Shown: positions 18,894 through 63,395 of the stretch, piece after piece
How positions within the stretch are numbered: the first letter of the stretch is position 1
Layout: every line of letters begins with the position of its first letter
Assembly (NCBI GenBank): GCA_015057325.1
Contig: SVEQ01000003.1
Coordinates: 62,001 to 126,000 of the forward strand
DNA from: Lachnospiraceae bacterium
Lineage (GTDB): Bacteria > Bacillota > Clostridia > Lachnospirales > Lachnospiraceae
DNA length: 64,000 nt
Direction: 5' to 3'
Made by a program: the position numbers and the translations under genes
Notes under the pieces: model-generated
Told to the model about the DNA's origin: nothing
The model's input: the letters and a program-made list of their open reading frames with translations, nothing else
The model's database searches: none

Positions 18894-19880
18894 TTACATA
18901 GGAGCAATGATTAAACGGTCCATCATCCTGTCAAAATAATATATAGAGTCAGAAAGCAAATCGATAAATCCTACTGACGATTTATTCCCTTCACACAAGA
19001 GATACTGCAAAAAAGAAGGATCTACACCCTCATATTCCGGAACAAGTAATACCTCATGCACACTTGAAGGCAAAACATATACATTAGCATTACTAACCTT
19101 GGCAAAATTGGCTATTACATTGTCATAAAGCATGCACGTTGCACCGTATGCTTTGTCGTGATTAGTAAGAATATACATATTAACATCTTGAGGTAAATCG
19201 CCAAAAACTTCAGAAGGAGCAGGCAGATTTCCACCTAAATGTTCTATCTTTTCTTTGTACAAATCTACAATCATATCTGTTATTGATTGAATATCCCACG
19301 GATATTTCTGCATAGTATTAAATAAGGCCCTCTCATATACTTCTTCAATACCCACGCCCCATTTATCAAACTCCTTGTTGGTTATAAGTGCACTGGCAAT
19401 ACCTACTTCATTAACATCAAATACATACCTAAATGTTATTGCAACATCCAAGTACCTCTTGTGTGGGCAACTTTTAAGAAGTTCCTTGTTCATCTCATAG
19501 TTAACAACTCTTACAACAAGATTACTTCCTACATTTGAATAATCGCTTATATCCACATATTCAATGTCATTATTATCCATCTCCTCTTTGTATCGATGAA
19601 CAATATCCTCCATAATCATTTCAAGAGGTTTCCCCATTTCATAACTGTCATAATATGGTTTTAAATAAATGTTGGGACTTAAAGAACGGCCTTCCCTATG
19701 AATACAAACTGCATCAAGAACAATTCCGTTGTTCTTAACAACCTGCTGTATACTCAATGAACATTTACTTATGAAATCATCAGCTTCTTCATCCGATAAT
19801 TTCATGTTTTTTCTCTCGTACTCCTCATAAACTTCTAAAAGGTTTTTCTCGATGTACTCTAAAAATTCGTCGTAATTCAT
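18894..19880 (-). CDS. DUF5688 family protein
   Basis: This 328-residue soluble protein has the pattern I associate with DUF5688 proteins: an N-terminal helical region, then NNGIVLDAVCIHREGRSLSP and IYLKPYYDSYEMG, followed by a long mixed region ending in VGFIDLLSDSIYYFDR. These proteins are frequent and often multi-copy in Lachnospiraceae and have no established biochemical role. There are no membrane segments or known catalytic motifs. The gene stands alone after the hisC terminator, 108 bp from the TetR gene start. Confidence 0.8.
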   Translation of the reverse strand: MNYDEFLEYIEKNLLEVYEEYERKNMKLSDEEADDFISKCSLSIQQVVKNNGIVLDAVCIHREGRSLSPNIYLKPYYDSYEMGKPLEMIMEDIVHRYKEEMDNNDIEYVDISDYSNVGSNLVVRVVNYEMNKELLKSCPHKRYLDVAITFRYVFDVNEVGIASALITNKEFDKWGVGIEEVYERALFNTMQKYPWDIQSITDMIVDLYKEKIEHLGGNLPAPSEVFGDLPQDVNMYILTNHDKAYGATCMLYDNVIANFAKVSNANVYVLPSSVHEVLLVPEYEGVDPSFLQYLLCEGNKSSVGFIDLLSDSIYYFDRMMDRLIIAPM

Positions 19881-24507: not shown

Positions 24508-26304
24508 TTAATCAAATGACGCAACTCTGCGAAACTCTTCAACTGTTGTTATTCCCTGTTCCATCAAATCTATACAACTCTGTCGCAAGGTTTTCATTCC
24601 CTGCTTTTCTATAGCGTAGTCCTTGATGTCTTCCGTAGTTGCTCCCGAAGAAATCATGTTACGCAATTCCTTATCTACTATAAGAATCTCATGTATTGCC
24701 GTTCTACCACTGTAACCTGTATTGTTACAATGAGGACAACCACAAGCCACCTTAACTCTTGGAATGTCACGACCAATAAACTGTCTGTCCTCTTCCGATA
24801 AAGTTCCTTCCTTACAACAATAGGTACATACTTTTCTTACTAATCGCTGCGCAATAATACCATCTAGGGCACTTGATACCATATAAGGCTCAATACCCAT
24901 ATCCACAAGACGAATAACCGATGAAGCAGCATCATTGGTATGAAGAGTTGAAAGAACCAAATGTCCTGTAATAGCCGCTCTTATTGATATGGATGCCGTC
25001 TCCTTATCACGAGTCTCACCAACCATTATGATATCAGGATCCTGTCGAAGCAATGCCCTAAGACCAACATCAAACGTAAGTCCCGCTACCGGATGAACCT
25101 GCATCTGATTAAGTTTTGGAAGGTTCTTCTCAACCGGGTCTTCAATTGTTGAAATGTTAACCGGACGATTTGAAAGTTCAGCAAGCATCATATAAAGTGT
25201 TGTAGACTTACCTGAACCTGTAGGACCCGTAAGATAAATGATTCCGTTAAGAGAACCAAGCATTGTCTGAACCTTTTTATAATCCTCTGCATTCATACCG
25301 AAAGTACCCGGATTATCTATTGCGGAATTATTAGCAAGAAGTCTAAGCACCGCTTTCTCACCAAATGATGTAGGTATAATCGAAACACGAACATTTACAA
25401 TCTGGTCTCTTATTCTTACTCTGAAGTGTCCGTCCTGCGGCACACGTCTTTCTGCTATATCAAGTTCACCCATTATCTTAATTCTTGCAATAAGCGATGC
25501 GTGAATGTTTTTCTGCAAGGTAACATATTCAACCATTGCACCGTCTATACGCATACGAACCATAGTGTTTTTCTCGAATGGTTCAATATGAATATCGGAT
25601 ACATTATCTGCGTACGCCTTATCAAGTAAACTGTTAACCAGATTGATAATAGGCGTATCGTCTGTACCGTCTGAAGTGTCGATAAGCATTTCATCAACAC
25701 CGCTGTCATCCATGTTCTTGTTGGCAACCGTAACCGCTTCTTTTGCAGCAATCTCTGCATAGTAATAATGAATAGCATTCTTAAGCGGTTCTGCCTCTGA
25801 AATAAACAAATCAATTGTTTTTCCTGTTGTCTGCCTGATATCCTCGATTCCATAAAGGTCAAGAGGATCATTTACTACCAATTGCAAACGGTCATTATCA
25901 AGTCCGATTGGAAGCATAACATAATCATTGGCAAGTTGCTCAGGAATAAGATCAACCGCCTCAATATCCACTTTCGTATTGGATATATCAATAACTTCTA
26001 TGTTAAGTTTCTCTGCCATAGCGCCAAGCATCTGGCGTTCTGTTACAAGACCCAACGTAATTAAGATTGAACCGATACGCTCACCCTTATGCTCCTTCTG
26101 GTATGCAAGTGCTTCCTTAAGTTGGCTGTCCGTAATATAGCCCATCTCAATAAGAGTATCTCCAAGACGAAGTTTTCTAATTGCATTATTGTCAAACGAA
26201 GGTGCAGCCGGTCTTTCCTCTGTCGGTGTTATAGTCTGTGTCGTTGTAACACCCAAACCCAATGATGCAGTTTTATTATCCATATCGCTAATTCTTAATT
26301 TCAT
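24508..26304 (-). CDS. pilB: Type IV pilus assembly ATPase (PilB/GspE family)
   Basis: The hexameric motor that powers pilus extension. Residues about 40-110 form a MshEN-type domain (LGDTLIEMGYITDSQLKEAL), of the sort that binds cyclic di-GMP in some relatives. The ATPase core has Walker A LTGPTGSGKSTTLY, an Asp box (EDPVEK), Walker B LLRQDPDIIMVGETRD and the His box TGHLVLSTLHTNDAASS. A tetracysteine zinc site (CTYC and CPHC, about residues 510-550) is typical of extension ATPases rather than PilT. GTGATG-preceded start MKLRISDMD at 26304 has GGAG upstream. It is the last gene of the pilus operon; no PilT-like gene is in the window. Confidence 0.95.
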   Translation of the reverse strand: MKLRISDMDNKTASLGLGVTTTQTITPTEERPAAPSFDNNAIRKLRLGDTLIEMGYITDSQLKEALAYQKEHKGERIGSILITLGLVTERQMLGAMAEKLNIEVIDISNTKVDIEAVDLIPEQLANDYVMLPIGLDNDRLQLVVNDPLDLYGIEDIRQTTGKTIDLFISEAEPLKNAIHYYYAEIAAKEAVTVANKNMDDSGVDEMLIDTSDGTDDTPIINLVNSLLDKAYADNVSDIHIEPFEKNTMVRMRIDGAMVEYVTLQKNIHASLIARIKIMGELDIAERRVPQDGHFRVRIRDQIVNVRVSIIPTSFGEKAVLRLLANNSAIDNPGTFGMNAEDYKKVQTMLGSLNGIIYLTGPTGSGKSTTLYMMLAELSNRPVNISTIEDPVEKNLPKLNQMQVHPVAGLTFDVGLRALLRQDPDIIMVGETRDKETASISIRAAITGHLVLSTLHTNDAASSVIRLVDMGIEPYMVSSALDGIIAQRLVRKVCTYCCKEGTLSEEDRQFIGRDIPRVKVACGCPHCNNTGYSGRTAIHEILIVDKELRNMISSGATTEDIKDYAIEKQGMKTLRQSCIDLMEQGITTVEEFRRVASFD

Positions 26305-26320
26305 AACATCACTCCACCCT

Positions 26321-27127
26321 TTACTCGGTTTTTTCCAAAAACTTCATTCCGTCATACATAAACATATCAAAGCATATAACAAGTCTTGCTCCGCTACCGT
26401 TATCAAGATTGACTAACTCGCCGTTAACATACTGATACGGAAGAGTTGTCACGTCAGACCATTCAAAAGAAGTAACCGTTATTGCCTTATCATTTATAAG
26501 TTCATCAAGAAGTGTCTGTGCCTTATCGTGTGGTCCGTATACATCCAGTGTTATCGCTGTTGAATATACATTGGCGGGTGATGTATCAGTCACATTGTAA
26601 GCACCTGTATCATAATTAATTGAAGCAAGCAAATCCAAATCAACAATTTCACTGTCGCTTTCTTTCTCATCAGAAGAAGCACTGTCCTCTGATTCTTCAG
26701 CCAACGCCGCCAATGCTTCGGCAGCCTCTATTTGTTTGGTCATTTCCTCGGAATTAACATACGGATTATACACTACCGGCTCTTTTCCTGTTCTGATTCC
26801 CAAATTGATAACTTTAAGACCATGGCCTAATGCCTTATTGGTAATAAGTTTATCAACATCAGATGAAGGCATTTTTTCGTAATATCTGGAAGAAAGTTCC
26901 TCTGCCATCGTCATAGCCTTCTCTTCGAAACTCTTAATAATTTCTAAATGATATAACTTTGCTTCAATCGTATCATGAGTAATCTGTGCATCGTCAAGTT
27001 TTACGGAAGTCTTGTCAATCTTTTTGTTAAGCGGTCTAATTCCTAGAATATAGAACATAGCAACAATGACGATGATTCCCAATATGTACAATAATTTCTT
27101 GTCTCTTGATGTTATCTGGGTCGTCAT
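26321..27127 (-). CDS. PilO-like pilus assembly protein
   Basis: The 268-residue protein has a short cytoplasmic N-terminus, one membrane segment (about 13-30) and a coiled coil (about 31-80), followed by an acidic Glu/Ser-rich stretch (about 140-165) and a C-terminal alpha-beta domain. This matches the bitopic PilO architecture, and its position after the PilM-PilN gene (4 bp) supports it. With PilN and PilM it would form the alignment or platform subcomplex linking the pilus motor to the external face of the membrane. Sequence similarity in this family is low, so the name rests on topology and order. Confidence 0.75.
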   Translation of the reverse strand: MTTQITSRDKKLLYILGIIVIVAMFYILGIRPLNKKIDKTSVKLDDAQITHDTIEAKLYHLEIIKSFEEKAMTMAEELSSRYYEKMPSSDVDKLITNKALGHGLKVINLGIRTGKEPVVYNPYVNSEEMTKQIEAAEALAALAEESEDSASSDEKESDSEIVDLDLLASINYDTGAYNVTDTSPANVYSTAITLDVYGPHDKAQTLLDELINDKAITVTSFEWSDVTTLPYQYVNGELVNLDNGSGARLVICFDMFMYDGMKFLEKTE

Positions 27128-28615: not shown

Positions 28616-29812
28616 TTATAATGAACCAATCTGCTGATATGATTGATAAATCGGCACAATTACTGAAATAACGATAAATCCAACAATGATAGCCATTACA
28701 ACTATCATTAAAGGCTCGATATATGAAACCATCTGACCGATTGCTCTTTCAGATTCAAACTCCATATCATCAGCAATCGAATCAAGCATTGTATCAAGCG
28801 AACCTGCTTCCTCGCCCACACGAACCGAGGATTCTAACTTTCTGACAAAACCGTCAACCTTGCCAAGTGCAGTACTTAACTGTTCACCTGCTGTCGTATC
28901 GGCAATAACCTGCTTAAACTGTTTCTCTATGTATAGATTGCCAATAGTCTTGCTTGCAATATCAAGACAAGTAATAATCGGAATTCCCGAAGAATACAAC
29001 GAGCTTAATGTTCGCGCAAATCGTGCAGTATATATAACTTTGAACAATTTGCCAAGTTTGGGCAAATGAATCTGTATCATATCAAGAGCATACCGGACAG
29101 CCGGCAGTTTCTTCATGAAATACATAATCAACCACAAGACAACCGCTCCGATTATTAACGCATACCAGTATTTAACAACAAAATCACTTATCGCAAGCAT
29201 TATTCTTGTCGGTAAAGGAAGCGTCTTCATCTGTTCAAACAGTGTGTTAAACATCGGCATAACAAATCCAAATATTATTGCAACCACAATAACTATCAAT
29301 ACTGCCAATATCTTAGGATATGTCATTGAACTTTTGATTTTCGCATTTAAATGATCCTCTTTTGTATATTGAGCGGACACTCTAAGTGCCGTTGCATCAA
29401 GTCCGCCACTGCTTTCCGCTGCTTTGAACATATTAATAATCAATTGTGGAAAAACTCCTACCATTGAACTCATTGCAGTAGATAAAGGAACACCCTGCAT
29501 TACTTCTCTGGTCACATCTTTGTAAACTTTTCTTTCATATGGCGTAATAGCCTCATCTTCCGATAACATTTGAAGTGCTCTTACAAGTGGTATGCCGGCA
29601 CGCATTAGAGTTCCAATCTGTCTTGAAAACTCTGCTAACGCCTTGGCTTTTAAAGGCTTGTAATTAGCCGTCTTGGTCATATCCTTGGCATCCACCAACA
29701 TAAGGTCTTTCTTTTTCAGGTGCTCGTGAAGATCCTGTTCATCACCGGCAGGCATAAAGCCTACGACGATATTACCTTCCTTATCCTGTGCTTTGTATTT
29801 GTAATTAGGCAT
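28616..29812 (-). CDS. pilC: Type IV pilus inner-membrane platform protein (PilC/GspF family)
   Basis: At 398 residues it has the usual two GspF (T2SSF) repeats, each a cytoplasmic helical domain followed by membrane segments. The N-terminus PNYKYKAQDKEGNIVVG is typical, as are FSRQIGTLMRAGIPLVRALQML in repeat one and FARTLSSLYSSGIPIITCLDIA in repeat two, and the C-terminal GFIVISVIVPIYQSYQQIGSL. Membrane segments lie near 168-192, 215-235 and 370-390. It is the platform on which pilins are assembled by the PilB motor. Confidence 0.94.
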   Translation of the reverse strand: MPNYKYKAQDKEGNIVVGFMPAGDEQDLHEHLKKKDLMLVDAKDMTKTANYKPLKAKALAEFSRQIGTLMRAGIPLVRALQMLSEDEAITPYERKVYKDVTREVMQGVPLSTAMSSMVGVFPQLIINMFKAAESSGGLDATALRVSAQYTKEDHLNAKIKSSMTYPKILAVLIVIVVAIIFGFVMPMFNTLFEQMKTLPLPTRIMLAISDFVVKYWYALIIGAVVLWLIMYFMKKLPAVRYALDMIQIHLPKLGKLFKVIYTARFARTLSSLYSSGIPIITCLDIASKTIGNLYIEKQFKQVIADTTAGEQLSTALGKVDGFVRKLESSVRVGEEAGSLDTMLDSIADDMEFESERAIGQMVSYIEPLMIVVMAIIVGFIVISVIVPIYQSYQQIGSL

Positions 29813-29839: not shown

Positions 29840-30691
29840 CTATCCGCGAATCATTGCCGCAAGTTTAAGATATGCATTAAGAATATCCATACCGCAAATT
29901 ATCGCTATAATATATCCCGTACATAAATACGGCCCAAACGCAAAATGATCCTTGCTCTTTAATTTTTTTGCAAGCAAAAGAACTATTGCATATATGCCGG
30001 AAATCAAAAGACTTATAGCAAAACTAACCACAGTTAATTTCCAACCAAGCATAAGTCCTACCGCCACTGAAAGCTTGACGTCACCGCCGCCAAAGCCTCC
30101 GTGAACAACACTCGCTATAATAAACATCGGAACGCTTATCACAAATGCTCCGATAATATGTTCAGTTAAACTAACCCCCGGAAGCGTAAGTAATGAAATT
30201 ACCGCAATCACAAGCGTTGCAACAACATACTTATTGGGTATCTTCATTGTATCATAATCCGAAATAATAACCAAATCCATTACACAAAAAAACAAACAAA
30301 CCGTCAACAAAAATAACAGTCTTGAAATGTTAAAATGTGCAATTACATCAAGCGGTATCCCAATGGTAAACCCACTTGCCAGTGAAGGTGCATCGCCAAA
30401 TCTGAAAAACAAAAAGACAAAACATATACCGCCAATTATTTCATTAATAAAATCACGAACCGGCAACTTCTCGTTGCAATATCGGCATTTACCTTTTAAT
30501 AAAATATAAGAAAAAACCGGAAACGTTTCTATCGCCTTAAGCATTGTGCCGCAACTGTCGCACTCAAAATGCTCATTAAGTATTTTCTTTTTCTTATTCT
30601 GTCTGCAGATTATTGTATTAACAAACGAAAACGCTGTTGTACCCAATATCCAAATAAAAACAAGCAACAAAATATGCAAAAAAATAACCAT
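29840..30691 (-). CDS. pilD: Prepilin peptidase (type IV leader peptidase, A24 family)
   Basis: The bifunctional PilD architecture is present. An N-terminal domain carries two Cys pairs (CDSCG and CRYCN, about residues 45-80) as in the zinc-binding, methyltransferase-containing form. A polytopic A24 peptidase follows with aspartates in SDYDTMKIPN and in the signature FGGGDVKLSVAVG. It should cleave the five prepilins encoded upstream after their conserved Gly and methylate the new N-terminus. The start is the ATG at 30691 (283 residues) behind GGTGG; a GTG two codons earlier is less well spaced. Confidence 0.93.
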   Translation of the reverse strand: MVIFLHILLLVFIWILGTTAFSFVNTIICRQNKKKKILNEHFECDSCGTMLKAIETFPVFSYILLKGKCRYCNEKLPVRDFINEIIGGICFVFLFFRFGDAPSLASGFTIGIPLDVIAHFNISRLLFLLTVCLFFCVMDLVIISDYDTMKIPNKYVVATLVIAVISLLTLPGVSLTEHIIGAFVISVPMFIIASVVHGGFGGGDVKLSVAVGLMLGWKLTVVSFAISLLISGIYAIVLLLAKKLKSKDHFAFGPYLCTGYIIAIICGMDILNAYLKLAAMIRG

Positions 30692-30709
30692 AATCACACC
30701 ACCATTTAA

Positions 30710-33618: not shown

Positions 33619-36600
33619 TTAATTAGTTATTTCAAATGCTTTCTGGTATGTGCCTCTTACATACGAGCCACCTTCAACCTTATCACAAAACGCTCTTTCT
33701 AGATAATATTTCTTATTATCATTACCGGCACTTATATCAAGTGTTACTCCTGCCACTGACTTATTTGCTTCAAAAACATTCTTGCTTAGTTCAAGTTCTT
33801 CAAGCACACCGGCAATCGAATAACCTGTAGTATCATAATCTTCTGTATAACCTGCATACCAAATACATACAAACAGATCTTTAAAATCACTTAAATCAAT
33901 TCCGCTATCAACATTTAAACTAACAGATACATTAGTCTCCGGATTTCCGGCGGTTAAATTAATATACTTATCAGGTAATGTTCTTGCAAGAATAGTCGTA
34001 CCGGCAAAGCCATCTATCGCTTCTTTAGGGGTTCCGCATACAGCAACACAGAAACTCTGCATATTTCGGGGCATATACGATGTCAGGTTTGAGGCAGTCT
34101 CAAATTTAACCGAAGCAGCTGTATATGTTATATTGTTACCATTAACTGAAACATTATCACCTGTTACCTTAACATTTCCAATTCCACTTGGAATTGCCAA
34201 TGTCCTGTATGGCATATAAATTGTTCTATTCGTTGTCTCACTGACTACCTCAGAATTATTATACGCATCCTTAATAACTGCATATGCCTTTAAGTTTGTA
34301 GTACTACCATCCGTTTTTTTGTTATTTGAACGTGCCACGCCATACGGAACCGTAATTTGTGAAACTCTGGTCTTAGCATAAGTTACTCCTGTTCCCAGTT
34401 TGATGCTATGTTTTTCATTTTCACAATCCGGAAGTTCCACAACAATCTCAACATTATCGTCATAATCTTCAGGATTATTAAGCTTTACAAACTGTCCCTC
34501 ATCACCAAGCAATATAATCGATATATCAGGCTTATTATATGTCTTTTGTGTAATTTCACGATAAAGAACGTATTTGTTATAGTTATTTGTAGTATCTGTT
34601 GTTGTCTGATATCTTTCATCTGCAAGTGGTGTCACATAATAATATTTCGTCTTATCTACACCGTCGGTTACATCTATTAAAACACCTTTTTCTCTTGCAT
34701 TAACGAACGCACCTTTATCATTATCATATGCAAGTTGCTTTGCAACGTCCTCTGATATCTTAAAATACTGATGCAAATATCTTGCAGAAGCATTATCTGC
34801 GTTGTTAAGACCTGACTTTGAATACCAAACCGCAAACTTAAAGTCATGGTAACCGCTGACATCATCAATGGTTACGGAAACCGGTTCAGAATACTTATAA
34901 GCTGTTGTTGAATAGCCAAACTTCATCAACTGATCTTCACTAAGATACAACGTAACTTCCTGATCTTTGTCATCCAGTGCATATATCTCATAGCGATAAT
35001 ACTGTGATATATCATTATGAGAGTTGTATCGTATCATTCCCTTAAAGGTAAGTTTATTTTGTGCATCAACGATAAACTCGCCTGTAGTCTCAGGGTTTGT
35101 TCCTTCTTTGTAAGCAGCTTTCGTAGCAAAAAGATTAACATTTACTCTCGCCTGCAAATCCGCCTGTAAAATCGTCTTGTTATTGGTTGGACTGTACTCA
35201 TACGCCTCTGAATCAATAAAGCCGTCACACTGTGCTATAAACTTAAGTACAATCTTTTCGTTATTAAGCTTACATGCATGATCAAGAACATCATCAATCA
35301 TTGTATTGTCTGAAAGGTTAATCGCGAAAGTATTATTATCCTTTAATACAATCTTTGTGTTACTTTCAGTATAATCCTTGTAGTTGATAAGTCTTGCATA
35401 CCATTTCGGTTCTCTTCCCATACAGACAATTTCTATCTGAGGTTTTGCAAGTTTTACAGAGCGGAAATAATACTTAGTATCAGACGCCTTGCTCATGTCT
35501 GTAATAAATCCTGTCGCTCTAAGTTTGTTAGAAGCCCACTTGGATGTAGTTTCGACATAATTATATACATCCCCCTGACCAGGAGACGCATACCACGCCT
35601 CTATTCCAAACTCTGAATATTTATTAAGGTCTATTGATGAATTAGCTGAATAATATCCAATCTCAACATGTGCACTTCCACCTACATTTACAGGATATTC
35701 ATCTTCTGCAATGGTCTCATGCCAAGAAATATCATTACCCGCATCATCCTTACCATTGACAACTCCATAAAGTTCTACCCTAAACACCTGCGGTACATCC
35801 GGGGTTATATCCTTATTATCCCACTTATCAAAGTATGTATATGATAATGTTCCGCTATATGTCGGTTTGCTGTCGGCAAGTTTATCGCCTCCTACATCCG
35901 GTGTAAGTAGTGCGTTAATATTCTTTGCTGTTGCATTCTTTGGAATAAATACCATTTCTCTTACAATCTCTGCATCAAGACAACCGTCTGCCTTTGCGTA
36001 ACAATAGATTTCTTCTCCAACTCTGCCTTCTGCAATATCAGTAGCAACAACCGCATTGCGAAGAATCTTATCATCATAAGACACATCATCAGACATCATA
36101 ATATCAGCCTTGGTAAGTTTAATGGTTTTATTAATTGTTGAAGTATTATTCTTGTAATTATATACACCAACCTCAAAGTTAGGATTATCAATATAATCCT
36201 TGAAATCATCGGCATTCTTAAGATGAAGCATCCACTTGCCAGCATACGATACTATCTCGAATTCAGGTTCCGGAAGTTTCGGTTCAAGTTCAACATAACT
36301 CTTGATTGAATCCGTATCCATGATATCGCTGTAATAACTTTCGGCATCAACCTTTTTCTTGGCACGACTGTCACGTACTCTTACAACCGCATAATGCTTA
36401 ACTCCAACACCCATTACGTTATCGCCCGGAGTATCGAAAAGATAAGTCGTTCCGTAAGATGTTTTATTTTCTGTTACAAAAGCATATCCCTCTTCATTAC
36501 CTGCTGCCTTTGCCTTATATTCATCTAATTTGTCAGCCTCAAAGTCAACATTGGAAGGAAGACTTACATAGTTAAGTTCTACATCAAACTCAGTAGCGGT

Positions 36601-39600
36601 AGGCACGTCCCCGCCGTCCGGTTCAACTTCCCACGAGGCACTGTATTTACCTGCAGTAGTACTCTTGGTAACATTTACATTCTTAATCTTATCAGGATTC
36701 TCTTCCTGTTTCTTAATACACTCTGCAATATAATCCATGTAGCAGTTATCAAGTTCAAAATAATCAATATCATATTCATCGGCAACAGGTGTTCTGGAAG
36801 CCTTAAGCTTATTGTCAAGATTGATATTACCATGGTCAGTTTCTGCCTGACTCTTGTATTTATCCATTTTCTTGGCTCTTTCTGTGTAGAAATGGTCAAG
36901 AAGCTTATTGCTGTATGGTGTAACATCACCGGTTTCCGAGAATTTGTATATTATAGGATACTCCAGCAATCCGTCTGCATCGGTATTGATATACACCTTA
37001 TCATCCTTAACCCACGCATTGGAAGAATCAAGCCACGTCACGTCATATCCGTCCGGCTCGGCAATCAATGCATAATTGTTATGATTAGTGCCATACGAAA
37101 CGGTAATGAGTCGGGATGATTTGATTTCCTTACTAAGCTTATCTACCTTGTCAATATACTTCTTATTGGAAATAGTTGAAGGAGAGCCCGGCTCACCGTC
37201 TCCTATAAACGCATTAACCAATGTTGCATTTCCCTTTAAGTTGGTCGAAACATTATTATTGACTCTGGCAGAGAATCCGGTACTTCTTATAAGTCCCGCA
37301 CGATTACTGTATTGGAATGAATACTCATCCATATAATAATTATTGCCATACACTTTGTACGGTGCTCTGTTACCATCATAAGAACCTGTTTTGAAATATG
37401 CAATTGCTCCACCTTTAAACAAATAGCCTCCGCCGGTATTATCATATCCTAACATACGCAGGCTGAAACAGTTCTTAACGGCTGTGTATCCGATTTGAGG
37501 ATAACTCGTAGAGTATTCATCACGTCCCGAAAGAATACCTCCGTTCTTAAGTTGATAATACTCTCCCGTCTTCGCGCCTTGTGAACTACGTATTTCAGAC
37601 GAATAATTACGGCACGAATCAACATTAACAAATATACTGTTAACAGTCTTTTTATCCTTAATACCATCTTTTGCAAAACATCCGATTGTGCCAAGTATTC
37701 CCGCACTCTTTGAATGAGCATATATTTTGGCATTAACACCGTTAACACATTCCTTAATATTTACAGTATAAAGCTTCATAGCCTCCGGTGCGGAAATCTC
37801 GCCTACTATACCTCCAACATCATTGGCTGTATTATTTCCAAGCTTTCTCATTATTTTATTGGTTTCCTTATCGAAGCCTATTGCAGGAAGTCCGACAGTT
37901 CCATGATTCTCACAATTAACAATGTCATTAACCTGGGCCGGTTTAAGCTCAGAATAGTGTGCAACAATACCTCCGGCAGTTCCACTGTATCCACCATCAT
38001 AAGCATTGGTATATCCTGCCATAAGAGTTCCGTAATTAAAGCAGTTTGAAACCTCACCGCCATTATTCTTAACTGATGCAATAACTCCACCGACATTGTT
38101 TCCATAATAGTTGACAACCGTTCCCGCATTAACACATCTGTCTATAAGCCAACCCTCGCCTGTGTCATTATCCTGAGTTCCGATAACACCACCGACATAA
38201 TAAAAGTTGTTATTGTAATTCAAATCCGTTACCCGGCCATATTCATTCATAACAGAATCATCCTCAGATAATTCCTTAAGTTCAACTCTGACATAAGCAA
38301 AGTTGATATTGTTGTACATCACTTTGCTTGCGGATACATTTTCTCCAATCACTCCACCGGTTGAAACATACCTTACCTTCGGCAGATAATTCTCAACAAC
38401 CCATCTGCCGGTTGCGCAATTCATAACCGATCCCGAAGATGTATTAAAGCCACAAACGCCACCAATACAGCCGCATCCGTTACTCATTGAAAGCACAAAA
38501 TCATTACCCGATAAATCATACTCGGCTTTTGATAATGCATACTTATACTCACTTACTTTATCCGGAATATAGCCACACTCATCTGTAATCTCATCCTTGA
38601 GCATACCTGTATCGGAATCAATAAATGTCTGCGTTAATTTCTTTCTTGCGGCACGTTTCTTAGATTCATCTTTTGATGTCAACTGACTAAGCGTAGATAT
38701 TATCTTTGTAGCAAGCTTCATATCGTCAGCGTTCTCGTTAATGGCAATGAACTTGTCATTTCCGGCATAGAATTCCTTATCGGTATAACCCGAAGCAGTA
38801 ATAGTTCCTTTATTAACCGCCGTAATACCACCGGCCATACCATTGACAAGTGTAAGTTTAGTATATTTAAGTCGTTTGCCGCTGTTGTCAAAGAGACTTG
38901 TTATGTAACATTTATTGATAGTCGAGCCCTTATAGTTAATACCGCACACAGAACCGATTGACGAACATTTTGAAAGCTTTGTGTCGTCATCGGCACTTTC
39001 TCTAAAGTTACCGGTTCCCGTAATCTCCATATCAGCGCCGACAACGTAGCACGAATCAATTGTTCCGGCAAGTGAATCATTTCCGTTTCTCGCAGCAATT
39101 CCGCCAATAGCCATAGATGCCTGGCTTCTCTTTGTCTTGACAATCTTTCCGCCAAAGAAACAATCATTAATTCTTCCGAGATTATTGCCGACAACACCAC
39201 CAACCGTCTCAGCCTGGTTGTTATCAACAAGATTAAATGTTACATTTACATTCTTAACTACTGCCTTGTTATTATTAACTCCGACAGCACCGCCAACCGT
39301 AAGTTTTGTTTTATTGGAATTGTAAGCAAGATACTCTCCGGCCTTGCCCCCGTTAACAACACCACTATTCTCTCCTACAAGGAAGCCGATAGTATCCATT
39401 TCGTTACCGGAAATAACTATTGCATCATTTTTTCCAATAGAATTTATCGCCGACCTGCAGTTTGCCACAACACCTGTTGTGTGGTTGGTTGAAGTTATCG
39501 AACCTGCAACTTCCATATTACCGGAAATCTTAGGAATGTAGTCATTGTTATCGTTATATTCATCAGCAACGGCTCTATCAAACTTACACTCATACACATA

Positions 39601-42096
39601 TCCGAAGTTTTCTGAAACAATACCTGCCGACACACCTTTTGTCGCCTTAGGGCTTCCGTAGGAAGAACATTTTGCCACGAAGCATCCATCTGCATTAACA
39701 CCCATTACTCCACCGACAAAATCATAACCGCTAATATCACCGTAACTTGCACAATTAATAAGCTGCGCATCTTTAAGGTTGCTCGGTGTCAAATTATCTC
39801 CGGCACCGTCAACCCCACCCAACTTATTATCCGCAAGAGCGGAGATAAACATATTACCAACTATACCACCCGTAAATGATACACCGACAACGTCAGCTTT
39901 GTTGATGATTGACGTATCATTATCAGAAACACCAATTCCTAATTGATTGCCGTTTGAAGCATACTCTCCGTATGCATATCCAAAAACTCCGCCTGTACCG
40001 TATGCGTAGTAGTCCGCATTGGTCTTTCCGTTAGCGTCCTTCGTCTTGTCATTTAAAATCTCTTTTCTTGCCGCAACATCTGTTACATCCGGTGTTTTGG
40101 TAAAATCATCACCTGCAATATCTGCTTTAACCGTACCTGCAGTAAAGAGTTTATCAAACAGACAATCTTTCGTCATGTAAGCAGTTCCGGAAATCATACC
40201 CACTCCGGCACCGAATATTTTATTATAATTATCCTCTTTGTCTTTGTAGGCATCTTTATCTTTTAATGCTTCACTGTCATCATTTAATTTGTAGGTCACC
40301 TTCGCCTCAATCTTAGAGTTCTTATCAAAGGTAATCTCACTTATGCTACCCTCACATCGTCCGCAAACAATTCCACAAGCTTCAACACAGTCAGAATATA
40401 TCGAATCGTCCGCTGTTCCGTTAGCAAGAAGATAGTCCTCTTTTGAAACTACAACCTCACATGCCTTTTTAAAATCTAATTTCTTAACGGTTCCCTTACT
40501 AACACCAAATAAACCAACCGTCGTCGCATTGTTGACAGGCGAGTTTGGATTCTTTAATGTACCGTCATCATTTCTCTCATAAAATACACTGCTGTCATTG
40601 GCAAGAAGCAAGTCCGTAACTACATGACCGCCACCGTCAAACTCTGAATCCTTAAGTAGTGTTGGGATTGTCGGGAATCCTGTTTTTGACGTATCTAACG
40701 AATCAAAAGAATTGCCCGCTACTGCCCCTGCTAGACTTGAATATATTATCCCGTCCTTCCAATCCAAGTCCTTCGTGACTATGTATGTATGCTTTTTGCC
40801 GTTAACATCGCTGTAATCTTCTGTATATCTGACATTGTATAAATGTCTGAAATTAGCGATTTCAAACGCTGTATCATCACCATAATATGCACTGGTATTT
40901 TTCTTGGTGTCAAAAAGGTCATTCTCAACGTTAGAATCAACAGACCCACCAACTGCATAATCTACCAAAGCATCTTTAGGTTCAACTGAAACTCTAGCAA
41001 ATAAATCAATCGGACGCACGCCCGCAAATCTTGTAATACTATAACCAACACGGTCTGTTCTTCCGTTGTCATCAAGTACCTTCATAAGCGCTGTCGACTG
41101 TGATGTCATCATAGCATCAAGCATAACAGAAAGTTCATATACCGTTTCGTTATTAGAATCTTTCGAACTAATAAATGACAAAACAAACGGATACTTACCA
41201 AGGCTCTTGTTATCAGCATCAAAGACCTCAAGTTCAACACGTTTTGGAGTATCAACCGGAACATCTGATACCATGCTTCTGTCAATATCAAATGAACAAA
41301 TTCTTTTTTCGGTATCTCCCTTTTCATATAATTCAATATTAAATGAAGTATCCGTATCAGCATTACTTGAATTACTGTTAACTGTAAGGAACAATGTATC
41401 TTCATTGTGAAGCATTGCATTCTTAACCTTAAGTTCCTTCATTTGATTAATCTTAACAACATTAACCTGATCAGACGAGTAATATCCTACCGTATACTCT
41501 TCTCGATATTCAGCCTTTCTATGATCTTTGGTGATGTGGAAGTCACCGCGAACCTCACTGTTTTCTTCAGCGTACGATAAAGACTCTGCCCAATTACTGT
41601 AAAATACCGAATATACTTTCTTGGCAGTAATATCAAACTCGACAACAATCGAACCGTTAAGCTGCTCGCTGTCGCTTATATAATCTCTTAACAGATCAAA
41701 CAGAGGGTTATTGGAACCGGCCTGATAGTCACCCTTCTTAACTGACAAATATCCATATGTATGTTCAACATCTTCATTATCCTTATGTAACGGAATGCCA
41801 TAGGTGGATTTGCTAAGTCCGCTTACACCTGCAGAAGCAAAGTGTCCACCATGTGCAGGCATGGAGTTTTCCAAATCCTTCATGTACTCATCAAGTACTC
41901 CACGACTTTCTGCAGCAGATAATGCAGACTGTGCTCCCATATATATCGTACGCGCTTTTTCTTCACTGCTTATGTACTCATAGTGCTCTATCCAACCCAT
42001 GATACCCCAAAGTGCAGCACTCATCATTATTGAAATTATAGTCAGAACAACAATCATTTCTACAAGCGTAAAACCTGTATTATGTTTTTTTGTCAT
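33619..42096 (-). CDS. Giant prepilin-anchored adhesin with GLUG-like repeats (about 2,825 residues)
   Basis: The N-terminus is a complete prepilin signal: MTKKHNTG, then FTLVEMIVVLTIISIMMSAAL with Glu5, so it should be processed by PilD and enter the pilus. The start at 42096 follows GGTGG. Residues to about 220 form a pilin-like stem, then about 220-400 a beta-rich domain. About 420-1700 is a long region of GLUG-like repeats (recurring V-G-G-I/V-x-G-x-N with N-C-x-N-x-G). About 1840-2829 holds roughly 3.5 copies of a two-domain unit (F-x-V-E-L-Y strand, W-Y-A/S, K-Y-Y, K-P-x-I-E-I). There is no LPXTG or other wall anchor. At 15 times the major pilin it is most simply a tip adhesin, but its ligand is unknown. 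It is the first gene of the pilus operon. Confidence 0.9.
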   Translation of the reverse strand: MTKKHNTGFTLVEMIVVLTIISIMMSAALWGIMGWIEHYEYISSEEKARTIYMGAQSALSAAESRGVLDEYMKDLENSMPAHGGHFASAGVSGLSKSTYGIPLHKDNEDVEHTYGYLSVKKGDYQAGSNNPLFDLLRDYISDSEQLNGSIVVEFDITAKKVYSVFYSNWAESLSYAEENSEVRGDFHITKDHRKAEYREEYTVGYYSSDQVNVVKINQMKELKVKNAMLHNEDTLFLTVNSNSSNADTDTSFNIELYEKGDTEKRICSFDIDRSMVSDVPVDTPKRVELEVFDADNKSLGKYPFVLSFISSKDSNNETVYELSVMLDAMMTSQSTALMKVLDDNGRTDRVGYSITRFAGVRPIDLFARVSVEPKDALVDYAVGGSVDSNVENDLFDTKKNTSAYYGDDTAFEIANFRHLYNVRYTEDYSDVNGKKHTYIVTKDLDWKDGIIYSSLAGAVAGNSFDSLDTSKTGFPTIPTLLKDSEFDGGGHVVTDLLLANDSSVFYERNDDGTLKNPNSPVNNATTVGLFGVSKGTVKKLDFKKACEVVVSKEDYLLANGTADDSIYSDCVEACGIVCGRCEGSISEITFDKNSKIEAKVTYKLNDDSEALKDKDAYKDKEDNYNKIFGAGVGMISGTAYMTKDCLFDKLFTAGTVKADIAGDDFTKTPDVTDVAARKEILNDKTKDANGKTNADYYAYGTGGVFGYAYGEYASNGNQLGIGVSDNDTSIINKADVVGVSFTGGIVGNMFISALADNKLGGVDGAGDNLTPSNLKDAQLINCASYGDISGYDFVGGVMGVNADGCFVAKCSSYGSPKATKGVSAGIVSENFGYVYECKFDRAVADEYNDNNDYIPKISGNMEVAGSITSTNHTTGVVANCRSAINSIGKNDAIVISGNEMDTIGFLVGENSGVVNGGKAGEYLAYNSNKTKLTVGGAVGVNNNKAVVKNVNVTFNLVDNNQAETVGGVVGNNLGRINDCFFGGKIVKTKRSQASMAIGGIAARNGNDSLAGTIDSCYVVGADMEITGTGNFRESADDDTKLSKCSSIGSVCGINYKGSTINKCYITSLFDNSGKRLKYTKLTLVNGMAGGITAVNKGTITASGYTDKEFYAGNDKFIAINENADDMKLATKIISTLSQLTSKDESKKRAARKKLTQTFIDSDTGMLKDEITDECGYIPDKVSEYKYALSKAEYDLSGNDFVLSMSNGCGCIGGVCGFNTSSGSVMNCATGRWVVENYLPKVRYVSTGGVIGENVSASKVMYNNINFAYVRVELKELSEDDSVMNEYGRVTDLNYNNNFYYVGGVIGTQDNDTGEGWLIDRCVNAGTVVNYYGNNVGGVIASVKNNGGEVSNCFNYGTLMAGYTNAYDGGYSGTAGGIVAHYSELKPAQVNDIVNCENHGTVGLPAIGFDKETNKIMRKLGNNTANDVGGIVGEISAPEAMKLYTVNIKECVNGVNAKIYAHSKSAGILGTIGCFAKDGIKDKKTVNSIFVNVDSCRNYSSEIRSSQGAKTGEYYQLKNGGILSGRDEYSTSYPQIGYTAVKNCFSLRMLGYDNTGGGYLFKGGAIAYFKTGSYDGNRAPYKVYGNNYYMDEYSFQYSNRAGLIRSTGFSARVNNNVSTNLKGNATLVNAFIGDGEPGSPSTISNKKYIDKVDKLSKEIKSSRLITVSYGTNHNNYALIAEPDGYDVTWLDSSNAWVKDDKVYINTDADGLLEYPIIYKFSETGDVTPYSNKLLDHFYTERAKKMDKYKSQAETDHGNINLDNKLKASRTPVADEYDIDYFELDNCYMDYIAECIKKQEENPDKIKNVNVTKSTTAGKYSASWEVEPDGGDVPTATEFDVELNYVSLPSNVDFEADKLDEYKAKAAGNEEGYAFVTENKTSYGTTYLFDTPGDNVMGVGVKHYAVVRVRDSRAKKKVDAESYYSDIMDTDSIKSYVELEPKLPEPEFEIVSYAGKWMLHLKNADDFKDYIDNPNFEVGVYNYKNNTSTINKTIKLTKADIMMSDDVSYDDKILRNAVVATDIAEGRVGEEIYCYAKADGCLDAEIVREMVFIPKNATAKNINALLTPDVGGDKLADSKPTYSGTLSYTYFDKWDNKDITPDVPQVFRVELYGVVNGKDDAGNDISWHETIAEDEYPVNVGGSAHVEIGYYSANSSIDLNKYSEFGIEAWYASPGQGDVYNYVETTSKWASNKLRATGFITDMSKASDTKYYFRSVKLAKPQIEIVCMGREPKWYARLINYKDYTESNTKIVLKDNNTFAINLSDNTMIDDVLDHACKLNNEKIVLKFIAQCDGFIDSEAYEYSPTNNKTILQADLQARVNVNLFATKAAYKEGTNPETTGEFIVDAQNKLTFKGMIRYNSHNDISQYYRYEIYALDDKDQEVTLYLSEDQLMKFGYSTTAYKYSEPVSVTIDDVSGYHDFKFAVWYSKSGLNNADNASARYLHQYFKISEDVAKQLAYDNDKGAFVNAREKGVLIDVTDGVDKTKYYYVTPLADERYQTTTDTTNNYNKYVLYREITQKTYNKPDISIILLGDEGQFVKLNNPEDYDDNVEIVVELPDCENEKHSIKLGTGVTYAKTRVSQITVPYGVARSNNKKTDGSTTNLKAYAVIKDAYNNSEVVSETTNRTIYMPYRTLAIPSGIGNVKVTGDNVSVNGNNITYTAASVKFETASNLTSYMPRNMQSFCVAVCGTPKEAIDGFAGTTILARTLPDKYINLTAGNPETNVSVSLNVDSGIDLSDFKDLFVCIWYAGYTEDYDTTGYSIAGVLEELELSKNVFEANKSVAGVTLDISAGNDNKKYYLERAFCDKVEGGSYVRGTYQKAFEITN

Positions 42097-42147: not shown

Positions 42148-42176
42148 ATCGTAAAACTTATGTATTATTATAACAA
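42148..42176 (-). promoter_or_regulatory. Candidate promoter of the pilus operon
   Basis: Minus-strand TTGTTA (42171-42176), 17 bp, TACGAT (42148-42153), overlapping the T-tract of the rho terminator. The match is partial; the AT-rich gap holds other weak options, including TATAAT near 42116. Confidence 0.3.
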
Positions 42177-42203
42177 AAAATCCTGAAAAAATTCAGGATT
42201 TTT
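42177..42203 (-). terminator. Intrinsic terminator after rho
   Basis: Minus-strand TCCTGAA and TTCAGGA form a stem with AAAAA before it and TTTTTTG after it. It separates rho from the pilus operon. Confidence 0.85.
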
Positions 42204-45316: not shown

Positions 45317-45351
45317 AATAACTGCTGCCAAAATATTTGGCAACAGTTATT
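45317..45351. terminator. Bidirectional terminator between aroC and the CAP-like gene
   Basis: AATAACTG...TGCCAAA and TTTGGCAA...CAGTTATT form a long stem, with seven T after it on the plus strand and an A-tract before it that serves as a T-run on the other strand. It overlaps the last codon of the minus-strand gene. Confidence 0.85.
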
Positions 45352-46294
45352 TTTTTATAAACAATATGTCGTAATAATACACATTATCAACTACGTAAGA
45401 ACCAAGTCCCACGCAATCCATGTCCGTTTCTTTTAATAATTTAGCGAAGTTGTTATCTAACTTAATATGTTCTATAAGCTGATTGATTCCATAATCAGGT
45501 TGTCCACCATACGAAAATTCGCAACCATTCTCACATTTAATACCACAATCCTGAATCAGTCTTTTGACATCACCATCATCGGCAAATCCGTTAACCAACG
45601 CCGACGCCCTAAGCACCGCACACGCCGTAACTTGAGAGTCCAATGAGATTTCCGGCATTCCGTAAGTTTTTCTACATTCGTTGATATAAAGATATACAGG
45701 ATAAAGCATTGTTGCATTTTCATCAACACTTCCATCTGAATTGAAGATATAGGTAGTATCTTCAATCGTCATAACTGCATCATGAACTCTTGCACCATTC
45801 TCATCAAAGTAGTATCTATATCCGTTAATAGTTTCAAAACCTGTTACAATTCTACCCTTCTCGCCTCCGTAGAACCAATCGTCTCCATTTTTGTACCATC
45901 CAACTACATATTCTGCATTAGTGTTGAAATAATACTTAACCCCTTCGTATTCAACGACACCGGTTTTGATTCTTCCATCTTCTTCCGTGATGAAAAAGTA
46001 ATCTTCATTATCAATTACACCGATTTGTATAACACCATTTTCATCCGCATAATAATACGCATCTTTATCTTCTACATAAAATTTTCCGGTCTTTAAATAT
46101 CCATCCTCATCAAAGTAGTACATATAATCTTCAATATCAGTAAAACCGATAGCATACTCACCGTCTTCATTGGTGTATCGACGACCATTTTCGTCCTCGT
46201 CCCAATATGCATGAACCGAATTATTGATACTAAAGAAAATTACCATGGTTGCAATGAATACAACCGGAAAAATTATCAATAACTTTTTATTCAT
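45347..46294 (-). CDS. Exported cell-wall-binding repeat protein with divergent CAP-like domain
   Basis: The 315-residue protein has an N-terminal hydrophobic signal segment (LLIIFPVVFIATMVIFF). It then has about seven aromatic-glycine repeats of the choline/cell-wall-binding type (YYFDEDGYLKTG, YYFNTNAEYVVGWYKNG, YRYYFDENGAR). The last 115 residues have a CAP/SCP-like outline (Y-I-N-E-C-R-K-T-Y-G, then A-S-A-L-V-N-G, and V-G-L-G-S-Y with a YYYDILF end). However, the usual histidine after the first CAP helix is missing, and four to five cysteines are present instead. A wall-associated protein of unknown activity is the safest reading. Confidence 0.75.
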   Translation of the reverse strand: MNKKLLIIFPVVFIATMVIFFSINNSVHAYWDEDENGRRYTNEDGEYAIGFTDIEDYMYYFDEDGYLKTGKFYVEDKDAYYYADENGVIQIGVIDNEDYFFITEEDGRIKTGVVEYEGVKYYFNTNAEYVVGWYKNGDDWFYGGEKGRIVTGFETINGYRYYFDENGARVHDAVMTIEDTTYIFNSDGSVDENATMLYPVYLYINECRKTYGMPEISLDSQVTACAVLRASALVNGFADDGDVKRLIQDCGIKCENGCEFSYGGQPDYGINQLIEHIKLDNNFAKLLKETDMDCVGLGSYVVDNVYYYDILFIKK

Positions 46295-61994: not shown

Positions 61995-63395
61995 TTATTC
62001 TTCTTCCATCATTTCATCAAGGATTTTGGCACACGCCATAAGTTCACTATCGTTACTGCAAGCTGTTATACTATGCTCGATATAGTCTTTGGTCTCCTGC
62101 ATAGAATTAAAAAGCACGGGCATATTCGAAAATACCGCCCCCATTACTGCTCTGTTAACATCCTTGGTGTGTTTTGCAAAAAATGCACTAAACTCATCAA
62201 CGAGCTCATCTCTCTTTTTGTTAATGTAATTAACATCACCGGCACTTAAATCAATACTTTCCTTATCAAGATCAATGAATAAACTGTTACCCATCAGCTT
62301 TGATATTTTGGAAAGATTATTGAATATCTTCTCTGCCATTATCCATGATATTTCGTCTGTCTTTTCAAGCGCATCCGGCAAAATACTCTCAAATTGCAAA
62401 ATGTCCTCACCCAAAATCTCCTGGCGACCTTCTATTACATAGAACTCATCATCAACCTCAGAAGGAATATCACTATCAGATATAAATGCACCATGAAGAC
62501 TCTTAATCATATTCTCGCAGGACTTAATACTTTCCTGCTCATTTTGCTGATAACCTATTGATAAAAGCACGCTGTAAAGCGCATTCACAATCTCCATTGC
62601 AAGCAAATGATTACTTACCAATTCTGTTAAATGACTTGTCGTTAATCCAAACTGCTCCATAACAGAGGAAAACGTATCTGCTTCCATTTTCTTATAATCT
62701 GTCGTTTCCAACAAATTAATCAAATTATAGATTTCCGGATATAAAGTCTCATACTCATCAGGCTTCTTAAGAAGAGCCGTTGAACGAAGCATGTCCACAA
62801 AATCATCTATAGCCTCTACATCCGACCCAATATAAATGTTAAGCGTAGCATTAAGATAGTCAAAGAACTTACTTTTAGTCATTCTGACAGGAAGTTGTGC
62901 CGTAACCATCTGAATTTTGCTGTTAATAACCATTTTGTCATTATCACTAAACAGATACTTAAATACCCTCTCACAAAGATCATCGGCATTAACTTCATAT
63001 TTTTCTCCAGTAATGCCATACTCTATACGATTGAGAATATACTCATATATTGAAAGTGCATCCGTGTAAGCCGTGAGCACAAACATTCTGTCCGTAAGTT
63101 TCTTTCTAATATCATGAAGCTTGTCAACTGCTTGCGATACATCTTCGCTTTTGTTGATAAGTGTTGAAAATATTATAGAATGAACCTCTTCAAGCAATGA
63201 AAGCAATGCTTCATCTTCATGTATAACTCCACCCTCATCTACAACCTCTTTCATTGTGTAGTAGTTAAGTGTCAACCTTATCATATTGTATTCATATACT
63301 GCATTCATATACGAATTACCGTATATTGGCAAGTTTGTCTCAATATCTTTATTCTTCGAAATATTCTTAATAGCGCTTCTTTCTTCTGACTTCAT
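61995..63395 (-). CDS. Large helical protein, unknown function
   Basis: The 466-residue protein is almost wholly helical and acidic, with no membrane segment, signal or catalytic motif that I recognise. Regularly spaced Leu/Ile and repeated D/E-rich loops suggest a helical-repeat scaffold. A conserved-looking ANLPIYG-like segment (ETNLPIYGNSYMNAVYEYN) is near the N-terminus and DDFVDMLRSTALL is near the middle. Its position between the rhomboid-like gene and the small protein is compact (16 and 12 bp). I infer a shared operon but no function. Confidence 0.75.
   Translation of the reverse strand: MKSEERSAIKNISKNKDIETNLPIYGNSYMNAVYEYNMIRLTLNYYTMKEVVDEGGVIHEDEALLSLLEEVHSIIFSTLINKSEDVSQAVDKLHDIRKKLTDRMFVLTAYTDALSIYEYILNRIEYGITGEKYEVNADDLCERVFKYLFSDNDKMVINSKIQMVTAQLPVRMTKSKFFDYLNATLNIYIGSDVEAIDDFVDMLRSTALLKKPDEYETLYPEIYNLINLLETTDYKKMEADTFSSVMEQFGLTTSHLTELVSNHLLAMEIVNALYSVLLSIGYQQNEQESIKSCENMIKSLHGAFISDSDIPSEVDDEFYVIEGRQEILGEDILQFESILPDALEKTDEISWIMAEKIFNNLSKISKLMGNSLFIDLDKESIDLSAGDVNYINKKRDELVDEFSAFFAKHTKDVNRAVMGAVFSNMPVLFNSMQETKDYIEHSITACSNDSELMACAKILDEMMEEE

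Follow-up and report, generated by a model that had tools for sequence, protein, structure and literature searches.

RESULTS

An outsized prepilin with a shared pilin module

Can a type IV pilus carry a subunit some 15 times as long as its major pilin, and what would such a subunit do? The question is raised by a gene of a Lachnospiraceae bacterium (GenBank assembly GCA_015057325.1) within positions 62,001 to 126,000 of contig SVEQ01000003.1, a stretch of 64,000 nucleotides that we call the window and whose own numbering is used throughout. The gene encodes a prepilin of 2,825 amino acids (aa) in which a pilin carrier, homologous to modules of other genomes, bears a giant and variable cargo, and it stands among pilus genes. 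We consider it probable that this giant is a modular minor pilin that acts as the tip adhesin of a type IV pilus.

The length given in a preliminary description of the locus was borne out by a single intact open reading frame (ORF), which lies on the minus strand, a point that the description had omitted; the plus-strand reading of the same interval is riddled with stops. The motif AAGGTGG lies immediately 5' of the ATG. The N-terminus, MTKKHNTGFTLVEMIVVLTIIS, carries the signal MTKKHNTG followed by FTLVE, and the full prepilin signal that had been described is matched by Pfam N_methyl at 31.5 bits (cut-off 21.2; E 1.1e-7) and by TIGR02532 at 26.1 bits (cut-off 16.3). The predicted cut falls where our alignment profile A5 (see below) aligns residue 1 of solved mature pilins. 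The protein has the features of a prepilin, namely, a leader that is short and ends in Gly, a glutamate at mature position 5 (Glu5), and a single clear hydrophobic helix at the N-terminus; one isolated 19-residue segment at 736 is barely above threshold. No LPxTG-type motif and no second clear membrane helix were found in the giant, in agreement with the earlier statement that it has no other wall anchor, and a sortase-anchored adhesin, which would combine such a motif with a C-terminal membrane helix, was rejected. The size disparity also held, the ratio to the 189-aa major-pilin candidate being 14.9. Nine N_methyl proteins were found in the source genome, and only the giant has a frame above 500 aa.

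A search for homologs had been proposed in the preliminary description, and the N-terminal part was indeed found to recur in other genomes. A module profile that begins 22 residues after the Gly and was built from 24 sequences found proteins outside its training set in genomes G472 (483 aa; E 5.5e-32), G284 (213 aa; E 3.9e-28), G696 (501 aa; E 3.2e-27), G647 (2,446 aa), and G498 (2,780 aa) (designations of this kind are our own handles for genomes, families, and loci). Because bare versions of the module (213 to 501 aa) exist, the extension is read as cargo on a pilin carrier. Five positions do not vary in 29 module rows, namely, Thr3, Glu6 (numbered from the Gly, and Glu5 in the mature protein), Ala41, Gln49, and Gly59. 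The 392 genomes sampled from the order were searched with a 23-row module alignment (A5), up to six candidates being scored per genome, so module counts are lower bounds. A match at E 1e-12 or better was obtained in 71 genomes, about half of them in the common helix alone. The whole module (model end at or beyond position 175) was present in at least 36 of the 392, with stop-to-stop frames that reach 1,000 aa or more in 29, 1,500 aa or more in 23, and 2,000 aa or more in 15, some of the module frames being cut by contig ends (for example, in G256, G298, and G202). Helix-only rows, most with frames under 300 aa, were excluded as ordinary pilins. Three of these rows exceed 1,000 aa, the first giant of G361 (1,696 aa) and the proteins of G098 and G113; for the last two, which stand outside the 36, a search confined to each locus recovered the full module.

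A draw of 398 genomes from the phylum, in which the f66 members of the class described below were not matched, gave a 369-aa protein in G816 as the sole whole-module match outside the giant's own family. A search of named contigs yielded eight module loci in seven assemblies titled Lachnospiraceae, Clostridiaceae, Clostridiales, or Clostridia, all of them assemblies already counted; roe deer rumen or omasum is given in two titles, and three others bear RUG labels, which presumably stand for rumen. A whole-protein scan of the same contigs found no relative of the giant. Of 17 further module loci, 15 have one or more additional ORFs resembling a pilin or pilus gene on the same strand, and G298 and G113 showed none; at the G405 locus the companion is a 191-aa prepilin only. 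Against solved structures, A5 matched type IV pilins in the helix only (best, PilE1, 8pfb; E 3.6e-10). A search of PDB sequences with the N-terminal alignment gave 24 rows, of which 5 were pilins; phospholipase A2-like chains, which made up 18 of the 24 and aligned to an internal stretch, were read as chance.

Relatives in the genus and constraint on the sequence

The N-terminal region of the giant is present in 9 of 26 genomes of the genus, the source genome included. Seven giants, counting that of the window, are complete (2,772, 2,825, 2,902, 3,020, 3,072, 3,184, and 3,866 aa), and contig ends cut those of G006 and G012 as well as a second giant in G006. Their C-terminal parts show the strongest divergence and differ in length among congeners. 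Between the window giant and its nearest relative, 2,776 codons were aligned at 59.5% identity, with a proportion of synonymous differences (pS) of 0.72 and of nonsynonymous differences (pN) of 0.27; pN was 0.20 to 0.33 in each of four parts. The pS value is saturated, and no exact dN/dS can therefore be given, but as judged from the codon comparison, amino acid changes are constrained over the full length. An artifact, be it a fusion created in assembly or a frame that is never translated, is refuted by this constraint together with the seven complete frames, which come from separate assemblies of the genus, and we assign it next to no probability. Full-length PilMN (the PilM/N-like fusion described below) was found in 8 of the 26 genomes, all of which hold a giant; the ninth holder, G006, is a fragmented assembly.

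The pilus operon and its neighbors

Twelve bases separate the giant gene from the next gene downstream, and the order that follows is PilX-, PilV-, and PilW-like genes, the 189-aa pilin, a 164-aa membrane protein, PilD, PilC, a PilM/N-like fusion, PilO, and PilB (Table 1). The giant is thus encoded alongside PilD and the assembly machinery, the context of a prepilin. That PilX-, PilV-, and PilW-like genes follow directly was already proposed in the preliminary description, and they were found in that order, the labels being based on gene order and weak similarity. The absence of Glu5 from the PilX-like protein is presumably as in GspK. Gene position suggests that the giant occupies the GspH/FimU (H) slot; its matches to the H family are weak (GspH, 19.2 bits, cut-off 80; PRK10506, 22.5 bits, cut-off 158). 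The 164-aa protein between the pilin gene and PilD is perhaps an unnamed pilus part. PilB has an MshEN domain, and extension may therefore respond to cyclic di-GMP. Identity with the PilC/PilY1 adhesin was rejected, since the giant gave no Pfam match to the PilY1 beta-propeller PF05567 at E up to 1.

The placement of the giant as first gene of the operon is supported by a terminator-like hairpin that separates it from the preceding rho gene. However, a consensus terminator scan lists no terminator between the two, and several relatives have an additional small prepilin gene 5' of the giant, so that this claim of the preliminary description stands in qualified form.

Table 1. Features of the giant prepilin locus in window coordinates
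Feature	Positions	Strand	Basis or remark
Giant prepilin, 2,825 aa	33619..42096	minus	ATG at 42096; stop ends at 33619; single intact ORF
Leader peptide MTKKHNTG, aa 1-8	42073..42096	minus	Predicted PilD cut after Gly8; Glu at mature position 5
Pilin module, aa 9-219	41440..42072	minus	N-terminal helix and conserved part; fold without confident model
Ig-like beta sandwich, aa 220-395	40912..41439	minus	Predicted
Right-handed beta-helix region, aa 538-1588	37333..40485	minus	Predicted; helix match aa 538-1108; GLUG-like units aa 697-1588
FN3-like pair, aa 1799-2053	35938..36702	minus	Predicted
C-terminal region, aa 1905-2825	33622..36384	minus	Unit of ~300 aa ~3 times; weak internal similarity
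PilX/GspK-like minor prepilin, 165 aa	33109..33606	minus	Without Glu5; weak family matches; named by sequence and position
PilV/GspI-like minor prepilin, 130 aa	32701..33093	minus	Order and weak similarity
PilW/GspJ-like minor prepilin, 294 aa	31869..32753	minus	N_methyl only; named by position
Major-pilin candidate, 189 aa	31260..31829	minus	
Single-helix membrane protein, 164 aa	30710..31204	minus	No Pfam match; similar genes in several relatives' operons
Prepilin peptidase PilD	29840..30697	minus	PF06750 and PF01478
Platform protein PilC	28616..29812	minus	PF00482
PilM/PilN-like fused assembly protein, 489 aa	27132..28601	minus	pilM 25.1 bits, below cut-off 133
PilO/GspM-like assembly protein	26321..27127	minus	PF04612
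Extension ATPase PilB with MshEN domain	24508..26304	minus	
Terminator-like hairpin, then T's	42176..42203	minus	Between rho and giant gene; -13.5 kcal/mol, z -3.1

Elsewhere in the window lie a 315-aa choline-binding repeat protein (45347-46294, about 1.8 kb past rho) and a DUF5688 protein (18894-19880; 287.6 bits). Contig C9 of the same genome has another pilus cluster, whose ATPases look PilB- and PilT-like by eye and which also encodes a PilX-like protein of 989 aa and a secreted-looking one of 1,122 aa.

Giant prepilins beside the PilMN machinery

A search with the PilM/N fusion gave full-length matches (E below 1e-49) in 22 of the 392 order genomes, and 15 of these have a cluster prepilin of 1,500 aa or more (1,542 to 4,121 aa); among the 15, the giant of G256 is cut at 1,580 aa and G361 has two. 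In the stretches retrieved from the remaining seven, the cluster showed no giant. The slot is taken by a 213-aa prepilin in G284, the contig of G124 begins at PilMN, and the others are G384, G054, G293, G172, and G210. Module frames lie elsewhere in G124 (3,284 aa), G054 (2,736 aa), G172 (1,191 aa), G293 (1,177 aa), G210 (561 aa), and G384 (200 aa), so that four of the 22 have no giant in the cluster and a module frame of 1,000 aa or more at another place. The two giants of G361 (L062:3551-15526) are tandem prepilins of 1,692 and 2,296 aa, and DUF285 occurs twelve times in the first.

Giant, PilX-, PilV-, and PilW-like genes stand in a row in the genus, in G361, and in G051, and likewise in G389 with one unlabelled member and in G339 with a longer one. 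The f5 genomes have, after the giant, three proteins that resemble PilX, PilV, and PilW by their N-termini and have no phmmer match to those of the window, and several f5 relatives have a second ATPase of about 350 aa that looks PilT-like by eye. The minor set of G647 is farther from its giant. A class-wide search of 391 genomes gave 14 matches at E 1e-25, 11 of them previously unseen. Module giants are carried by G647 and G498, whereas in G696 and G472 the module protein is short (501 and 483 aa) and the giant size belongs to a PilW-like prepilin (1,407 and 1,637 aa). This favors cargo that moves between tip subunits, and the pairing is what would be expected if cargo were grafted onto one tip subunit or another. 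The stretches fetched from G782, G698, G592, G502, G584, and G644 held no giant; PilX-like ORFs of 760 to 780 aa occur in G698, G592, and G502.

The cargo

The giant is built as a modular pilin, with a pilin module joined to further modules whose predicted folds are not pilus specific (Table 1) and occur in adhesins as well as in enzymes. Absence of a fold family from the fold matches listed does not exclude it. The C-terminal alignment found no match at E 1 among PDB sequences.

Pfam scans covered the window protein, three close relatives, 14 giants beyond the close group, and eight from further module loci, and left out G050, G256, G647, G498, and others. No recognizable carbohydrate-binding domain was found in the window protein; the giant of G009, of the same genus, has CBM_2 in two stretches (44.8 bits; cut-off 24). 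Glug, whose motif we take IPR011493 to denote, scored above cut-off in the giants of G389, G054, G152, G158, and G098 and below it in G134 (18.0 bits). CBM_5_12 in the G047 giant was below cut-off (21.8 versus 26.2 bits), and M26_N was above it in G152 and below it in G158. The remaining giants showed N_methyl with at most subthreshold extras, G160 showed nothing, and N_methyl fell below its own cut-off in G339, G152, G158, and G373. A GLUG-unit model was built from six giants of the genus; its counts within the genus are circular, a problem that does not affect those in other giants or the zeros obtained from shuffled copies. No major-pilin gene was seen in the cluster of the CBM_2-bearing congener (L018:1-10001).

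DISCUSSION

A probable tip adhesin and its alternatives

The preliminary description proposed a giant tip adhesin exported by the pilus machine. Delivery as a pilin stands as the best reading because of the homologous module, the minor-pilin neighborhood in most of the clusters seen, the cargo folds, which adhesins share with enzymes, and the CBM_2 domains of a congener, and the adhesive role at the tip is probable. The protein would be exported by Sec with its N-terminal helix retained in the membrane, and PilD would remove eight residues by cutting after Gly8. From the gene neighborhood, the pilin module would then join the PilX/V/W-like minor pilins in a complex that starts and caps the filament. 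PilB-driven extension would push out a cargo of about 300 kDa, with predicted Ig-like, long beta-helical with GLUG-like repeats, and FN3-like parts; being long and slender, it could cross the peptidoglycan end-on. The cargo may form an arm of several tens of nanometers that binds a surface, the ligand in gut relatives plausibly being plant polysaccharide. Plant-fiber binding is our leading guess, suggested by relatives from the ruminant gut and by the CBM_2 domains of a congener.

Several results weigh against this proposal. AlphaFold confidence (pLDDT) is below 50 over aa 1-219, leaving the pilin module without a confident model, and the FN3 and Ig fold matches have middling Z scores. In the window giant nothing besides N_methyl exceeded a Pfam cut-off, and in its nearest relative Glug reached 14.9 bits, below the cut-off of 20.5. 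The better CBM_2 stretch of G009 matched nothing in PDB by phmmer at E 0.01. As to gene content, 3 of the 22 PilMN-bearing order genomes (G284, G384, and G210) gave no module frame of 1,000 aa, the f77 genomes G782, G698, G592, and G502 have the same machinery and no giant of the window kind was seen in them, the giant comes after PilX/V/W rather than before in G376, G409, and G329, and the 1,475-aa prepilin of G667 lacks the module.

Alternatively, the giant could be a surface stalk held in the membrane by its prepilin helix, with the machinery working as a type II secretion-like pseudopilus and the protein never entering a long filament. Pilins do reside in the membrane before assembly, and only one ATPase gene was seen in the window operon versus the second, ~350-aa ATPase of several f5 relatives. 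However, the operon has a major-pilin candidate, a full minor set, and PilD, and Glu5, a residue used in filament assembly, is kept in 29 of 29 module rows; we therefore regard the stalk as rather unlikely. The beta-helix might instead be a glycan-cleaving domain, pectinase- or glycosidase-like, of a pilus-borne enzyme and not a binding arm. The likeness to pectin lyase-like enzymes is one of fold alone, Pfam giving no catalytic family match, and we judge such an enzyme improbable. That the C-terminal parts diverge most and change length among congeners would also suit a contact-dependent or kin-recognition device whose swappable end recognizes other bacterial cells, but no toxin- or immunity-like module is among the Pfam matches listed for the giants scanned, and this explanation seems highly improbable.

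If the tip adhesin reading is extended beyond this genome, many anaerobic Clostridia pili may carry a conserved tip subunit with an exchangeable arm of 1,000 to 4,000 residues and serve as platforms for giant tip fibers, a class that would have been overlooked because short proteins were presupposed in pilin searches and because most of the cargo has no database domain. We hold this tentatively, as nearly as plausible as its opposite. Were it true, the pilus tip, and not sortase-linked or cellulosomal proteins, would be a main adhesion device of some gut Clostridia. The giant also makes it testable by what means a monoderm draws a folded chain of about 300 kDa across its peptidoglycan on a pilus. 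The pilin finder PilFind accepts no protein above 350 aa, its training pilins being up to 333 aa long (PMC3244431); because of that limit it would drop giant prepilins, which suggests that length-capped pilin finders miss this family.

Comparison with known systems

The preliminary description knew of no system of this size and layout. Indeed, phrases such as "giant pilin" and "megapilin" occurred in no paper in a phrase search, and searches by title or abstract start found no such system, subscription journals being largely uncovered in both; a search on Caldicellulosiruptor gave an unrelated match only. The novelty is nevertheless one of degree, since the giant is an extreme case of published modular pilins and its layout is not unique to this genome. 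The published survey counts over 1,200 modular pilins in 264 architectures, and an 860-residue protein is its most extreme multidomain case (PMC8179133). One listed architecture, IPR012902-IPR011493, is discussed there as a predicted M26 peptidase (PMC8179133). With IPR011493 taken as the GLUG motif, it joins a pilin signal to the repeat family seen here. Some members of the present family would probably carry that label. Here, however, the GLUG region is a predicted beta-helix, and no M26 catalytic domain is among the Pfam matches listed for the giants scanned, the M26 N-terminal region appearing in two.

The PilC/PilY1 tip adhesin of diderm pili is likewise a large tip protein that goes with minor pilins and has a swappable part, but it is not a pilin, and the window protein has no PF05567 match. 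The type IV pili of Ruminococcus albus and Ruminococcus flavefaciens, implicated in cellulose adhesion, are also gut Clostridia pili tied to plant fiber; their pilins are small, and no giant subunit is mentioned in the excerpt of that report (PMC3672088). The closest likeness is to Streptococcus sanguinis PilB, with a vWA domain, and PilC, with Ig-like and lectin domains, which share with the giant a class III signal, a pilin module, C-terminally grafted domains, and a monoderm pilus (PMC8179133, PMC9934059). The model of a tip location is shared, and the PilC cargo likewise begins with an Ig-like domain (PMC8179133, PMC9934059); the vWA- and lectin-bearing tip pilins are described as adhesins (PMC9934059, PMC10191384). 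They differ in mass, about 50 kDa versus about 300 kDa here, and in cargo (PMC8179133, PMC9934059), and in S. sanguinis PilABC replaces PilHIJK (PMC10191384), whereas here the giant adjoins a PilX/V/W-like set. The giant is, in sum, an extreme variant of the known modular pilins.
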